Shown here piece after piece: positions 12,768 to 53,654 of a stretch of DNA of 64,000 nucleotides (its first letter is position 1; each line of letters opens with the position of its first letter). The DNA comes from a virus. The stretch spans positions 1-64,000 of the IMG/VR virus record IMGVR_UViG_3300032820_000001; one strand, written 5' to 3'. A program made the translations under genes and the position numbers. The notes beneath the pieces were generated by a model, which was given only the letters and a program-made list of their open reading frames with translations, was not told the DNA's origin and ran no database searches.

Positions 12768-13114
12768 TAGTAAATTTCTCCTTCGTATTCCAAGGTGTCG
12801 CTCAAAGAGTCGGACGCTTCATCGGGCACAAAGATTGTTGTGCGCGTTGTCTCCTTCTCCAAATCGATTGGGGCCACATCACAATCAGAGATGCAATAGC
12901 CAGTAAGGTCAGTCGCCTTATCTATGGCAGCACTAATCAATTCTTCCTGAGTTCCATCATGGAGAACAGGCACCACTAGCTTGCGTGGCAAACTATGGGG
13001 GATATAGCTATATCCATCCGTATCAATATCTACATCCCAAGCGATTGACTTCAATACAATCTCGATCATCTTAGGCTTTGGCATATCATAGGGGTTAATT
13101 TTAGTCACGGTCAT
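12767..13114 (-). CDS. Hypothetical protein
   Basis: The 115-residue acidic protein has alternating strands and one helix (DGTQEELISAAIDKATDLTG) and three acidic clusters near the C-terminus. The ATG at 13114 has GGAG only one base upstream, so a GTG two codons later may be the true start. It follows the micro-protein at 13101-13175 and probably uses the promoter at 13195-13223. Confidence 0.58.
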   Translation of the reverse strand: MTVTKINPYDMPKPKMIEIVLKSIAWDVDIDTDGYSYIPHSLPRKLVVPVLHDGTQEELISAAIDKATDLTGYCISDCDVAPIDLEKETTRTTIFVPDEASDSLSDTLEYEGEIY

Positions 13115-13175
13115 ACTCCTTGGTCTGGCACAAACAAATATAAAAAATACCAAATAAAACTAATAATTCAAACAC
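13101..13175 (-). CDS. Membrane micro-protein, 24 residues
   Basis: A GTG at 13175 with AAGGAG six bases upstream opens a 24-codon frame encoding one hydrophobic helix (FELLVLFGIFYICLCQ) and a short charged tail. An ATG in frame seven codons earlier lacks such a site. It is the first frame after the promoter at 13195-13223, which supports expression, but the size leaves doubt. Confidence 0.45.
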   Translation of the reverse strand: MFELLVLFGIFYICLCQTKEYDRD

Positions 13176-13194
13176 TTTTATCTCCTTCAAAATC

Positions 13195-13223
13195 ATTTTA
13201 ACACACATCTTGACTTTTGTCAA
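13195..13223 (-). promoter_or_regulatory. Sigma70 promoter inside the end of a GDLV gene
   Basis: TTGACA (13218-13223) and TAAAAT (13195-13200) are 17 bases apart on the minus strand. The -35 lies in the last codons of the GDLV gene at 13198-13443. The segment CTTGACAAAAGTCAAG is an inverted repeat centred on the -35, a possible operator. Expected start of transcription is near 13188. Confidence 0.65.
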
Positions 13224-13443
13224 GCACTTCTTCTACTTCCCACTCATAGACAACACTAGATTCGTTTAAACTGTTTTGCCACATCACCTCAACGCCCATG
13301 GCACCATCACCATACACACTCACATCTTTCCGCAATACAATACCAATCCAAGTCTCTTCTCCACACTCATAGAAATTTGATCCATTCACCACAGACTCCT
13401 CAAACAATTCGGCCTTAAACCTTACCAAGTCTCCTACTTTCAT
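13198..13443 (-). CDS. GDLV-family protein, end of the second tandem run
   Basis: The 81-residue product has VGDLVRFKAEL from residue 3, WIGIVLRKD near 32, VEVMWQN near 50 and VEEVLDK near the end. It is the last of eight family genes that follow each other without interruption, and its start overlaps the previous stop by four bases. Its tail contains the -35 box of a promoter. Confidence 0.78.
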   Translation of the reverse strand: MKVGDLVRFKAELFEESVVNGSNFYECGEETWIGIVLRKDVSVYGDGAMGVEVMWQNSLNESSVVYEWEVEEVLDKSQDVC

Positions 13444-13667
13444 GACACCACCTGATACTGGTCGTTACTCGGCGCGAGAATATAATGAAGATAGCCTTTT
13501 TTAAGACACCTCGCAACTGCATCAACGCGCTGTCGGTCATCCTTAAAGTTTTGTGGGAATGGAAGGTGATCGTCGGTTGGGTGAACCTGTGTTACAAGGA
13601 ACACTTCTCCAAAGCCCCATTCGCCTAGCTTAGTTCTCTTAACCAAGTCTCCTACTTTAAAATTCAT
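13440..13667 (-). CDS. GDLV-family protein
   Basis: The 75-residue product has KVGDLVKRTKLG near residue 4 and FLVTQVHP in place of G-I-V, then a helix-like insertion (DDRQRVDAVARCLKKG) and HYILAPSNDQYQVVS. It is a divergent member of the run. Start is the ATG at 13667, one base after the previous stop. Confidence 0.7.
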   Translation of the reverse strand: MNFKVGDLVKRTKLGEWGFGEVFLVTQVHPTDDHLPFPQNFKDDRQRVDAVARCLKKGYLHYILAPSNDQYQVVS

Positions 13668-13668
13668 C

Positions 13669-13866
13669 TTAATCACTTATCCTTTCCAGTGCTGTTCTCG
13701 AATGAAAGGTTTTGCACTGGGGAGGGTTATAGGGGAGCCACACCACCTGAACAAAGGACGCTGCTTCGGGATCGTCGGCCACAACTATACCAATCTCTTC
13801 TCGGTAGTTGGGCAACGGGCTCTCTCGCCAATGGTAATGCTTTACCAGATCTCCGATCTTAACCAT
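13669..13866 (-). CDS. GDLV-family protein
   Basis: The 65-residue product has IGDLVKHYHW from residue 4, EIGIVVADD near 24, FVQVVWLPY near 38 and ALERISD at the end. His/Trp residues in the loop after strand one are unusual in the family and could bind a ligand, which is inference. Confidence 0.78.
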   Translation of the reverse strand: MVKIGDLVKHYHWRESPLPNYREEIGIVVADDPEAASFVQVVWLPYNPPQCKTFHSRTALERISD

Positions 13867-14062
13867 TTACTTTCTCCAAGCGGCGCAGTGGATGCCACAG
13901 GGGGGGACTTAATGGCGCATCGCTCCACTTAACACACACCCCCATAACCCCAACTCCATATCCATCTTTGCTTTCTATTATCTTTATCACCACACCCAAC
14001 GCCTGTTCATGAGCGCGAACATAGGTCTGGGTGTCCCTTACTAAGTCTCCAACTTTAATCAT
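13859..14062 (-). CDS. GDLV-family protein
   Basis: The 67-residue product has VGDLVRDTQTY from residue 4, LGVVIKI near 22, VCVKWSDAP near 42 and RLEKVNG at the end. It is a near-consensus member in the second run and overlaps the next copy by eight bases. Confidence 0.78.
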   Translation of the reverse strand: MIKVGDLVRDTQTYVRAHEQALGVVIKIIESKDGYGVGVMGVCVKWSDAPLSPPLWHPLRRLEKVNG

Positions 14063-14063
14063 A

Positions 14064-14441
14064 TTATTTCGTCCGAATGGAAGGAAAGCTGTCTAGCAAA
14101 TCGGTTATATCTGGGAGGTTTCCACACTCAAGGGGGCTCCGCTCTTTTTCTATCTCTGAGGTGAGGTGCTTCCGGTGGGAAGCCGCCTTCAAGTCGCTGC
14201 GATAGAAGGAGCCGTAACCTGCATTAAACTTACCATAGTGGTATTGGCCTCTTCGCGCTCTGGGGCCGTGATCATTGATCCACTTAACTCTATAAGTGGG
14301 GCCGAGCCCATAAGGACTGCTCTTGTTAATTTCCATTACAAGTCCAATAATATTTCCCTTGCGCCAATCTTCATAGTAGCGCCAAGCAATTTGAAGGTTG
14401 ACCCCCTTCGCAGATAATGTTACTAAATCTCCAACGTTCAT
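14064..14441 (-). CDS. GDLV-family protein with C-terminal extension
   Basis: The 125-residue product has VGDLVTLSAKG from residue 3, IIGLVMEIN near 30 and YRVKWINDHG near 45, then a positively charged region (ARRGQYHYGKFNAGYG) and a 40-residue C-terminal extension ending in DITDLLDSFPSIRTK. Start is the ATG at 14441, whose ATGA overlaps the upstream stop. It is the longest copy in the run. Confidence 0.72.
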   Translation of the reverse strand: MNVGDLVTLSAKGVNLQIAWRYYEDWRKGNIIGLVMEINKSSPYGLGPTYRVKWINDHGPRARRGQYHYGKFNAGYGSFYRSDLKAASHRKHLTSEIEKERSPLECGNLPDITDLLDSFPSIRTK

Positions 14442-14659
14442 TTTACCACCTCCAGGTGCTTCCACATTGTTTTATCCAAGAGCCGGGGCTCTGAAGATCC
14501 GATGGGGAGTATTTTTAAATTGGTGACGGTATAAGTGTTCATGCCATCGCCTTCATCATCAAATAGGATCTCCTCCTCACCCAAATAAAGTGCTACGGTA
14601 TCATTCAAAGGGTAGCCCCCATAAACATAATCAATCTTCACTAAATCTCCTACTTTCAT
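14438..14659 (-). CDS. GDLV-family protein
   Basis: The 73-residue product has VGDLVKIDYVYG from residue 3, VALYLGEEE in the second strand, a YTVTNLKIL third strand and HLEVVK at the end. The G-I-V is replaced by A-L-Y. Both ends touch neighbours through four-base ATGA overlaps. Confidence 0.75.
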   Translation of the reverse strand: MKVGDLVKIDYVYGGYPLNDTVALYLGEEEILFDDEGDGMNTYTVTNLKILPIGSSEPRLLDKTMWKHLEVVK

Positions 14660-14823
14660 GCCACCACCTCGTACCACTTTTGGGCTACTCGTTCTTCAAT
14701 CCACAATCTGTTTCCGGTCGTGCAATTCAAAATAAAAATATCTCCCTCATGAATATCCACTACTAGCCATGGATCGCTCCTTCCTCCAAATACTTTCTGA
14801 ATTACTAAATCGCCCAATTTCAT
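14656..14823 (-). CDS. GDLV-family protein, 55 residues
   Basis: The product has LGDLVIQKVFG from residue 3, PWLVVDIHEG, FILNCTTGNRLW and WYEVVA. It is one of the shortest copies. Start is the ATG at 14823, which overlaps the upstream stop by four bases; a longer frame to 14898 would run through the upstream gene and is rejected. Confidence 0.75.
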   Translation of the reverse strand: MKLGDLVIQKVFGGRSDPWLVVDIHEGDIFILNCTTGNRLWIEERVAQKWYEVVA

Positions 14824-15008
14824 GACAATTTCTCCAGGGAAGATCGAGCTAACCGATAAGTGTAGCCTCCCAAGAGGACTACAGGATCTCCAGGGCAAGA
14901 GCGACCACCATGGTCAAAGCGAATGAGCAAACCCACCGTTTCTTTATCCAAAGTGGTGGCACCTTTTGTCACTACTAAATCTCCAATCTTAATCACTTTA
15001 TCTTCCAT
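14820..15008 (-). CDS. GDLV-family protein, head of the second tandem run
   Basis: The 62-residue product has IGDLVVTKGA from residue 8, VGLLIRFDHG near 25, PVVLLGGYTYR and SLEKLS. It is the first of eight family genes read one after another. Its start lies inside the end of the upstream helical gene by 16 bases. Confidence 0.76.
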   Translation of the reverse strand: MEDKVIKIGDLVVTKGATTLDKETVGLLIRFDHGGRSCPGDPVVLLGGYTYRLARSSLEKLS

Positions 15009-51480: not shown

Positions 51481-52617
51481 CTACTGTGCTTCGTCAGCAT
51501 CGAGGTCATAAAAATCAGAGGCAGTCCCGTCGCGGTTGGCGAACTTCAAGACAACTTCTTTTTCGAAGATGTCCATAGCGGTGGCGCGGAAGGTCTCATC
51601 CTGCATTTTATCGAGCCACATCTTTGACTGAAACTTTTCTTCTTTGCCATCTGAGTGGACAAGAGTGTACCACGCACCTGCGTTCTTAACTCGATCCGAT
51701 CCTTTGATGGCCTCGAAAATTCCTTCGTCATTCTGAATTCTTACTTCGTCTCCCCACAAAATCTTGAAGAAGCACTCACGGCCGTCAGAGCCAAAGCGAG
51801 ACTTTTTAATCTTTGCCTTTACTTCGGAGCCGATGCGAAAGCCATTCTCATCTAGAATATAAGATGCCTTGGACTTGCGGCCTGTGAGGTAGATACGCAG
51901 GGATGCTGCGTATTGCATGCTCTTTCCTCCGGGGGTGACAAACGGATCAATCATCGCTGAGACATGATCTCCGGGGCGGGGGATGTTTGTTTTTAATTGG
52001 TTCAACACCAGGAAGGTGCTGTTGGTCTCATTCAATGGGATGGTAAGCTTCTGCATCGCTTTGGAGAGGATACGAGCTTTAAGTGCCATTGTCTCTTGCG
52101 GATTGAACGTGCCTGAATTATCAGATTCCGTCGGCGTGTTTGCAAGACTATCCCATATAAATAAGACGTTTTCGTTTCCTTCGGTGAGGACTGTCTCGAT
52201 GGTCTCAAGCATGTTCTCGACGGAAGTAGGCGTAACTCTTAGGAAATTCTCTTCATCTACTCCCGCTTTTCTTAGGAACTCAAAGTCCATGGCAGCTTCC
52301 GAATCGAAGTAGATAACGCTGATTCCTTTAGTTGTGGCGTTGGCTGCAACCTGTGCAGCCATGTAAGACTTGCCGGATGCTTCAAGCCCAGCAATTTCTG
52401 TAATTCTGCCAACGGGAATGCCAGCCACTTTGCCTCGGCAAATGATGCCGTCCAGCCATGTGCAGCCCGTTGGGATCCAATCTGACACTTCGGAAGGGTT
52501 GGTGTCCGTCATCGTGTGGGCAACAGTCATACCCATCCTCTTGTTAAGAACCGTTGCGATTCCTTTGACGCCAAGTTTCCCCGGCTTTGATTTGATGTGT
52601 TTTAAATTTGTTGCCAC
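51481..52617 (-). CDS. uvsX: RecA/UvsX-type recombinase
   Basis: The 378-residue product has a Walker A at AGLEASGKSYMAAQ near residue 75, Walker B VLFIWDSLANTP near 150 and LNQLKTNIPRPGDH near 203, then a PGGKSMQYAASLRI stretch in the L2/ATP-site region. It forms filaments on ssDNA for strand exchange and recombination-dependent replication. It is similar to UvsX and to phage RecA-like proteins. The C-terminal part is acidic. Confidence 0.94.
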   Translation of the reverse strand: MATNLKHIKSKPGKLGVKGIATVLNKRMGMTVAHTMTDTNPSEVSDWIPTGCTWLDGIICRGKVAGIPVGRITEIAGLEASGKSYMAAQVAANATTKGISVIYFDSEAAMDFEFLRKAGVDEENFLRVTPTSVENMLETIETVLTEGNENVLFIWDSLANTPTESDNSGTFNPQETMALKARILSKAMQKLTIPLNETNSTFLVLNQLKTNIPRPGDHVSAMIDPFVTPGGKSMQYAASLRIYLTGRKSKASYILDENGFRIGSEVKAKIKKSRFGSDGRECFFKILWGDEVRIQNDEGIFEAIKGSDRVKNAGAWYTLVHSDGKEEKFQSKMWLDKMQDETFRATAMDIFEKEVVLKFANRDGTASDFYDLDADEAQ

Positions 52618-52640: not shown

Positions 52641-52716
<76 letters not shown>

Positions 52717-52719
52717 AAA

Positions 52720-52803
52720 AAAGGTGGGCAGTTCCCTTTGCCGACTTGCTGCCCGTCAAGTGCGTGAGGAATATGTACACGCGCCCGGTTGAGGCAAAGG
52801 GAA
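52720..52803 (-). ncRNA. Structured RNA candidate with pseudoknot
   Basis: Between the gp32-like stop (52812) and the tRNA the minus strand can form an 11-bp outer stem (52793-52803 with 52732-52742), two inner hairpins (GCGTG/CACGC at 52762-52782; ACTTG/CAAGT at 52744-52761), and a 6-bp pairing of the loop GGGCAG (52749-52754) with CTGCCC directly behind the outer stem (52726-52731). A T6 run follows the last pairing. An alternative is a terminator hairpin from GGGCAG and CTGCCC plus T-run. No family is known to me. Confidence 0.6.
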
Positions 52804-52811
52804 GAAATTAA

Positions 52812-53567
52812 TTAAGCATTCAATAAGTCATTAAATGACTTGTCAACACTTGACGCATTATCCTTCGAAGTATACTTCGCGGTTTCAGAAGAGTCTCCTT
52901 CCGCCGTTTCATCGGAGGTGAGATACTCATCCAAGAACCCCTGAACATCAGACGTACTCTTCTTCTCGAAAAGAGAATCGATATCTGGAATGCTGTCCAA
53001 GATTTCCTTGCAAGCTTCGGGTGTTGCTTCGACGCAAACCGTAGAGGTAGAGCGTTTTGGCGTCAACTTCGTCTGCGGGAATGATTGACCTGCGGCCTTA
53101 CCGTAGTGAAGGTCAAGGTCAGTTCCTGCTTCGATGTCAGTGATGTCGCCATACTCAGGGTTCAACACAAGGTTAAGCAAGGTTTCATAAGCCATCTTGC
53201 CATAGCCCCAAATTTTCACACCCAAGTTTTCTTCGCCACGAACCAATACGGGTGAGAAGAATCGCTGCCGAGCGGTAAGCTCTTTGGCCATCTTCACACT
53301 GTCGTCATCGCCTTCTTTATAAAGCTTTCGGGCGAAGTCACAAACTGGGCACTCATCGCCAAAGTTTTTCTTTGGACACAAGAAGCCAGAATTGCTGCCG
53401 ACATTGTAGTGGAAATGGTAATCCTTAAAGGGATCGCCGTCTTTGGTTGTTATAATGCGAATCGTTTGGTTCCCATCCGAAGGTCGCCAGAAGGCACTAG
53501 ACCCATTGCTTCCCTTGGATTGAAGTTTGGTCAAACGGTCTCGCATTTTGCTCATATCAATTGTCAT
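52812..53567 (-). CDS. Single-stranded DNA-binding protein, gp32-like
   Basis: The 251-residue product has a Ser/Trp-containing N-terminus, an aromatic-rich OB-like core (HFHYNVGSNSGFLCP) with a zinc site Cys-x7-Cys-x2-Cys (GFLCPKKNFGDECPVCD), RQRFFSPVLVRGEENLG, and an acidic C-terminal tail (TSDETAEGDSSETAKYTSKD) used by T4 gp32 for partner contacts. It covers ssDNA and ties recombinase to helicase. AGGAG lies 8 bases before the ATG at 53567. Confidence 0.9.
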   Translation of the reverse strand: MTIDMSKMRDRLTKLQSKGSNGSSAFWRPSDGNQTIRIITTKDGDPFKDYHFHYNVGSNSGFLCPKKNFGDECPVCDFARKLYKEGDDDSVKMAKELTARQRFFSPVLVRGEENLGVKIWGYGKMAYETLLNLVLNPEYGDITDIEAGTDLDLHYGKAAGQSFPQTKLTPKRSTSTVCVEATPEACKEILDSIPDIDSLFEKKSTSDVQGFLDEYLTSDETAEGDSSETAKYTSKDNASSVDKSFNDLLNA

Positions 53568-53588
53568 ATTTTTTTCTCCTGTTAAAGT

Positions 53589-53613
53589 CACTAGGGCAAA
53601 TCTCCCCTAAGTG
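53589..53613 (-). promoter_or_regulatory. Leader hairpin of the gp32-like gene
   Basis: CACTAGGG (53589-53596) pairs with CCCTA-GTG (53605-53613, one bulged A) in the 5' leader, just before the ribosome binding site. T4 gene 32 controls its own translation through a leader structure, so a similar role is possible here. Only the pairing is seen. Confidence 0.5.
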
Positions 53614-53625
53614 CTGGTTTTTATT

Positions 53626-53654
53626 ATTATACCACAGATCATCTGTGCTGTCAA
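53626..53654 (-). promoter_or_regulatory. Consensus sigma70 promoter with palindromic spacer (gene 32)
   Basis: TTGACA (53649-53654) and TATAAT (53626-53631) are 17 bases apart, and TGG precedes the -10. The spacer contains the perfect palindrome CACAGATCATCTGTG (53633-53647), an ideal site for a dimeric repressor lying between the two boxes. Confidence 0.85.

Follow-up and report, generated by a model that had tools for sequence, protein, structure and literature searches.

The DNA analysed here is a stretch of 64,000 nucleotides (the window) that forms part of a 191-kb virus record (IMGVR_UViG_3300032820_000001, G000). Near the RNA element described below all genes lie on the minus strand, in the order gp32-like protein, element, tRNA-Gly, UvsX/RecA, 5'-3' exonuclease, and DnaB-like helicase. 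The surroundings of the element at this position, the gp32/tRNA-Gly spacer (site A), are as follows.

53626 to 53654, minus strand: promoter-like site TTGACA-17-TATAAT (12/12; consensus match only)
52812 to 53591, minus strand: gp32-like single-strand DNA-binding protein, upstream of the element (Pfam PF08804, E = 1e-14)
52641 to 52716, minus strand: tRNA-Gly (TCC), downstream of the element (ARAGORN and Rfam RF00005)
51481 to 52617, minus strand: UvsX/RecA-like recombinase, downstream of the element (Pfam PF00154, E = 2e-33)

The 12/12 promoter-like site would drive gp32 and, through readthrough, the element. At site A no promoter is attached to the element itself, the best candidate by eye being TTGACA-17-TTGAAT inside gp32. 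The gp32 ORF is listed from a GTG at 53591, and an ATG at about 53567 behind AGGAGAAAAAAAT (MTIDMSKM...) looks like the true start. The gp32 leader behind the 12/12 promoter (53567-53626, minus strand) contains a hairpin, CACUUAGGG...CCCUAGUG, just before the ribosome-binding site (RBS), which could be the counterpart in this phage of the T4 gp32 translational operator.

The element starts about 9 nt past the gp32 stop codon and is composed of the following parts.

52732 to 52803, minus strand: body of the element, enclosed by P1 (from the sequence and from pair changes among copies)
52803-52793 with 52742-52732, minus strand: outer stem P1, TTCCCTTTGCC with GGCAAAGGGAA, 11 bp, exact in the sequence
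52784 to 52792, minus strand: junction TCAACCGGG, conserved
52782-52778 with 52766-52762 (hairpin 52762 to 52782), minus strand: HP1 stem GCGTG/CACGC, 5 bp
52777-52767, minus strand: HP1 loop TACATATTCCT, 11 nt, conserved
52761-52757 with 52748-52744 (hairpin 52744 to 52761), minus strand: P2 stem ACTTG/CAAGT, 5 bp
52756-52749, minus strand: P2 loop AC-GGGCAG, with GGGCAG at 52754-52749
52731-52726, minus strand: pseudoknot 3' strand CTGCCC, exact complement of GGGCAG in the P2 loop, 6 bp
52717 to 52725, minus strand: 3' tail ACC-T6, a pyrimidine tract with T6 at 52722-52717, flush with tRNA-Gly
52787-52784 with 52760-52757, minus strand: CGGG with CUUG, a pairing that competes with P2 for CUUG

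From its 5' part on, the RNA between the gp32 stop codon and the tRNA reads UUAAUUUC-UUCCCUUUGCC-UCAACCGGGC-GCGUG-UACAUAUUCCU-CACGC-ACUUG-AC-GGGCAG-CAAGU-C-GGCAAAGGGAA-CUGCCC-ACC-UUUUUU. P1 encloses both hairpins, HP1 and P2 (5 bp each), and the pseudoknot 3' strand abuts P1 with 0 nt between them. An earlier note on this DNA had described an 11-bp outer stem enclosing two hairpins, with the GGGCAG of the second loop exactly complementary to six bases directly behind the outer stem; both features are exactly present, on the gene (minus) strand. Because P2 and the pseudoknot helix together measure 11 bp, the same as P1 (10 bp in the shortened copy L009 described below), the two could lie side by side.

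The nested part of the fold, with the pseudoknot left out, had a minimum free energy of -30.0 kcal/mol (z = -2.9). When the 99-nt stretch was dinucleotide-shuffled 20,000 times, a P1 of at least 8 bp combined with a pseudoknot of at least 6 bp arose in 4 shuffles and a P1 of at least 10 bp in 0. The element was the sole match to a P1/pseudoknot descriptor in the real 64-kb window, and 200 shuffles of the window (one strand each) gave 15 loose matches and three with P1 of at least 11 and P2 of at least 5 bp. A loose descriptor (P1 of at least 8, pseudoknot of at least 5 bp) is frequent by chance and thus unusable for finding relatives. The plus strand of the same stretch gave no match in the descriptor search and the G-U changes among copies fit the minus strand, which rules out a plus-strand RNA; the shuffles, together with the covariation described below, rule out a chance fold.

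In searches with Rfam 15, the tRNA was the only match in the window, and searching with the element alone and with L009 yielded nothing but chance hits at E <= 10, far below gathering scores. BLAST against 50,697 records of cultured phages (E <= 1) and an exact-pattern search of GTDB prokaryotic genome contigs found no match. Patterns of conserved parts were also used. With TTTGCCTCN{5,35}GGGCAGCAAG, the matches beyond the known copies were chance matches except L091, which is the contig of L009; CTTGN{0,3}GGGCAGCAAGN{6,30}CTGCCC and CCTCNAYCGGG...TACNNANTCCTC gave chance matches only beyond the known copies; and CACTTGN{6,9}CAAGTYGGCA, aimed at covariation in the pseudoknot, gave no new copy among the 115 matches listed.

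We compared site A among 80 fetched viral loci with gp32 relatives. The element was found in the gp32-uvsX interval of L001 (identical), L002, and L004, and L009 carries a shortened copy that lacks HP1 and lies directly before tRNA-Gly, a small ORF separating it from gp32. In the relatives with 75-90% gp32 identity (L003, L006-L008, L012-L014), tRNA-Gly is in the same place and a plain GC hairpin with a T run replaces the element; L005, L010, and L011 have such a hairpin at site A with neither tRNA nor element. The slot terminators of the relatives with tRNA-Gly (L003, L006-L008, L012-L014) share with the element their position and a stem with a T run behind it that abuts the tRNA. Unlike the element, however, they are simple GC hairpins, in most of which the T run adjoins the stem, and lack P1, P2, the pseudoknot, and loop conservation. 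Between L004 and the window, identity was 0.64-0.80 at the 3' end of gp32 and 0.94-1.0 over the element and the tRNA start (around 52800-52900), and this step at the 5' edge of the element is likely a recombination border. As a separate observation, another intergenic motif, GCAGGGAGGCAUGGGAUACAGAUGCCUCAUUUU, a hairpin with a partly conserved loop, recurs after gp32 or other genes (L009:716-750, and similarly in L019 and L038) and is possibly another shared RNA element or a terminator family.

A core covariance model, for which HP1 was excised from the long copies, was run over 48 whole records and detected one more copy (E = 1e-4), L132 in G009, the 190-kb record to which L010 belongs; the gp32 spacer of L010 is free of the element. 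A pattern scan gave a second copy at the same new position (site B), L139 in record G048. A five-sequence model run over 50 records recovered the known copies only, one each in G000 (191 kb) and G009 (190 kb). Six copies were thus found in total, four at site A (one shortened) and two diverged ones at site B, with one copy per genome wherever a long record permits counting. The site B copies lie downstream of a DNA methyltransferase gene (with one ORF between in G048) and ahead of an RBS and small ORFs. They stand directly behind strong promoter-like sites, TTGACA-17-TAAAAT in L132 (11/12) and TTGACA-17-TATAAT in L139 (12/12), with transcription estimated to start 9-20 nt ahead of P1. No tRNA was found in L132, and sites A and B share no metabolic gene, which speaks against a metabolite-sensing riboswitch.

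The corresponding site in the window phage is free of the element.

13080 to 13223, minus strand: element-free site B, with a conserved promoter TTGACA-17-TAAAAT and small ORFs

Its sequence matches the G009 stretch behind the element at 89% identity. A like promoter and the same ORFs also occur without the element in G007, where a deletion has in addition removed the greater part of the ORF located after the element of G009. Thus, G000 has the element at A and lacks it at B, while the reverse holds for G009, a distribution that may reflect either a jump of the element or an ancestor with both sites filled and one loss per phage. Target-site duplications were not seen at A or B. Next to site B, the window contains tandem small ORFs (13198-15008, minus strand), nearly all with 'K(V/I)GDLV' near the start and apparently a paralogous family; similar ORFs lie near the element in G009 and G048.

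Covariation was examined in an alignment of five full-length copies (A4), a small sample of sequences related to one another, in which 97% of the cells of 27 pairs were paired. Four pairs had compensatory double changes, two in P1 and two in HP1. At the P1 pairs 18-79 and 19-78 of A4, L132 and L139 differ on both sides, U-A having become C-G, and the HP1 changes were C-G to U-A and G-C to A-U. P1 has in addition one G-C to G-U change in L002 and, by eye, a further U-A to C-G change in L009, which an aligner gap one column off kept out of the automatic tally. None of 500 shuffles had as many double-change cells or as high a covariation score as observed, and 39 of 500 reached the bare number of double-change pairs; when pairing partners were slid by 1-3 positions in either direction, only 34-53% of cells were paired. 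The G-U pairs fit the gene strand only. The compensating changes that the earlier note had proposed to look for were therefore present in P1 and HP1 and absent from the other helices, the P2 stem being identical in all six copies (conserved, without covariation) and the pseudoknot helix having no compensatory double change: its 3' strand is kept in 6/6 copies, with CTGCTC (one G-U for G-C) in L132 and L139. Support for the predicted pseudoknot comes instead from its exact complementarity, its fixed place behind P1, and the homology between the A and B copies, which starts at P1 (the 5' flanks are 20% identical) and extends past it through CUGCYC and the pyrimidine tail. Between the two sites, identity was 87% in the junction, 80% in the HP1 loop, and 64-70% in the P1 and HP1 stems. 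The junction and HP1 loop are thus better conserved than the stems, as in RNAs with recognised loops.

Taken together, the comparison delimits a discrete module, an RNA about 80 nt long in which P1-HP1-P2 is followed by the pseudoknot strand and a pyrimidine tail. It occurs at two intergenic sites in a small clade of gp32/UvsX phages, and its pair changes indicate that it is very probably a selected RNA structure on the gene strand. With no Rfam match and with covariation among homologues, its description as an undescribed structured RNA with a pseudoknot was upheld. An element linked to the tRNA or to gp32 is ruled out by L132 and L139 and by L003, L006-L008, and L012-L014.

One competing pairing was found within the conserved folds. 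The RNAalifold consensus, which is blind to pseudoknots, extended HP1 by CGGG-CUUG and opened P2; in L132 this extension gives HP1 ten continuous pairs. CUUG can therefore pair with either of two conserved partners, CGGG or CAAG, of which L009 retains only the P2 partner, and in these models the choice between them is the sole competition between conserved folds that we found.

The earlier note had proposed another competition, between the pseudoknot and a terminator hairpin ending in T6, as a switch that would govern whether transcription from gp32 reads through to tRNA-Gly and the recombinase gene. Because the terminator stem, GGGCAG/CTGCCC, consists of the same six base pairs as the pseudoknot, these are not alternative folds. 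T6 is indeed present, but it begins only after ACC, 3 nt behind the stem, whose loop is 17 nt. T-scores are computed by the usual measure with 0.9/0.6 decay. The score was 0.9 in the window, 0.9-1.2 in most copies, and 0.5-1.9 across all six, against mostly 2-4 for the slot terminators of relatives (with the exception of L006, 0.56). A pattern scanner for terminators did not list the element and listed another weak hairpin in L139. The tail is AHCTTTTTT in the window, L002, L004, and L139, and the T runs are broken or short in L132 (TCTCTCTC) and L009 (AAATTT). Judged from these sequences, the pyrimidine tract would be a poor intrinsic terminator. Since the module is mobile and its tract would terminate poorly, the proposed switch is unsupported: homologous copies occur at a locus without gp32, tRNA, or uvsX, and relatives with the same gp32-tRNA-uvsX order have ordinary hairpin terminators instead. 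The other proposal of the earlier note was a processed small RNA, which is kept here as one of the two main explanations; the protection of the 3' end of the gp32 message that the note assigned to it is not a general role, because two of the copies form 5' leaders and L009 has another gene between gp32 and the element.

Among known systems, the PeSLs of T4-type phages seem the nearest idea. They are composite motifs of promoter and terminator to which a role in modular shuffling has been ascribed (Arbiol 2010; Comeau 2014; as cited in PMC4503421). The element would resemble PeSLs as a small intergenic cassette with an early-type promoter and an RNA structure, found at different sites in related phages, and the identity of L004 with the window jumps at its 5' edge, consistent with recombination at that point. 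It differs in having the promoter before the structured RNA, in having no promoter attached at site A, in being a covarying pseudoknot with conserved loops rather than a plain stem-loop, and in its single copy per genome. The gene 32 translational operator of T4/T2 is likewise an RNA pseudoknot on the gp32 transcript; it sits on the 5' side, 67 nt ahead of the start codon, and gp32 binds it (PMC3014915). Unlike this operator, which belongs to the gp32 5' leader next to the RBS, the element of the window follows gp32 on its 3' side and in other phages is remote from that gene.

We regard the element as a mobile, once-per-genome RNA module that may serve as a leaky attenuator or 3'-end structure, and the mechanism that we tentatively favour is a cis-acting one. 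P1, HP1, and P2 would form during transcription, and CUGCYC, once emerged, would clamp onto the P2 loop to give a compact pseudoknot. This would pause the polymerase over the pyrimidine tract and provide a nuclease-resistant 3' structure, so that a fraction of transcripts would end or be cut at the element and less RNA would extend into the next gene. At site A the element would take the place of the plain terminator found between gp32 and tRNA-Gly in relatives, and at site B it would damp a strong promoter ahead of the small ORFs; the competition of CGGG and CAAG for CUUG may tune it. Such a role is consistent with the GC hairpin and T run in the site A slot of element-free relatives, with T6 in four of the copies, and with the promoter-like sites directly upstream at site B; a like promoter also occurs in element-free phages. 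The T run 3 nt off the stem, the low T-scores, and the broken or short tracts of L132 and L009 argue against it, and the conserved loops exceed what a terminator needs.

One copy per genome at a variable site points either to a cassette useful in several places or to a trans-acting RNA. The main rival explanation, which we consider rather doubtful, is accordingly a small RNA gene, in which the module itself is the product, released from its own promoter at site B or by cleavage or termination of the gp32 transcript at site A, and acts in trans, perhaps via the conserved loop of HP1, in which the sequence UCCUC might base-pair with ribosome-binding sites. A trans-acting RNA would be free to move whereas a cis element is tied to its gene, RNase P cleavage at tRNA-Gly would leave exactly a ...U6 3' end, and the site B promoter (with its start estimated close to P1), the pyrimidine tail, and the better conservation of the HP1 loop and junction than of the P1 and HP1 stems would all suit such an RNA. 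It is harder to reconcile with L132, where the tract UCUCUCUC is no terminator and an RBS and ORF follow right after, and with L009, from which HP1 is wholly missing. In its fuller form, a new family of mobile, pseudoknotted phage small RNAs, one per genome, acting on host or phage RNAs via the HP1 loop, this explanation seems unlikely. A specific version, with the HP1 loop as antisense of SD plus AUG (GAGGAAUAUGUAC), was rejected, the AUG complement not being preserved in L132 and L139.

Quite unlikely, too, is an RNA stability element, a nuclease-resistant knot that would shield gp32 mRNA at its 3' end (site A) and the leader transcript at its 5' end (site B). The compact P1/pseudoknot without a linker, close to the promoter start at site B and, at site A, some 9 nt past the stop codon, is what such a knot would look like; yet plain hairpins, as used by relatives, would suffice for this purpose, conserved loop sequences would be unnecessary, and the L009 copy is not adjacent to gp32. 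A processive antiterminator of the put/EAR type, acting on the polymerase from the nascent transcript, is improbable. HK022 put RNA, which is short, structured, and transcribed from immediately downstream of phage early promoters (PMC9378689), is the model for it, and the element likewise is a compact conserved RNA, has no dedicated gene, and lies right behind early-type promoters. This likeness is confined to position at site B: there is no sequence or family match to put RNA, Rfam gave no match to such families at E <= 10, and a conserved pyrimidine tail would be unexpected. A MITE-like mobile element at the DNA level, with P1 as terminal inverted repeats at its ends, would explain the different sites, but it is highly improbable given that HP1 covaries too, that the pseudoknot strand outside P1 is conserved, that G-U pairs fit one strand only, and that neither site has a visible target-site duplication.

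To our knowledge, few small RNAs and RNA switches have been mapped in uncultured phages, and the candidates mostly derive from a single sequence. The fold of the present element is backed by compensating changes, and neither Rfam nor the cultured-phage records gave a match to it. Because orthologous filled and empty sites exist for both positions, gain, loss, and the effect on neighbouring genes are directly comparable. Should the element act in trans, phage RNA genes would gain an unusual, mobile example.
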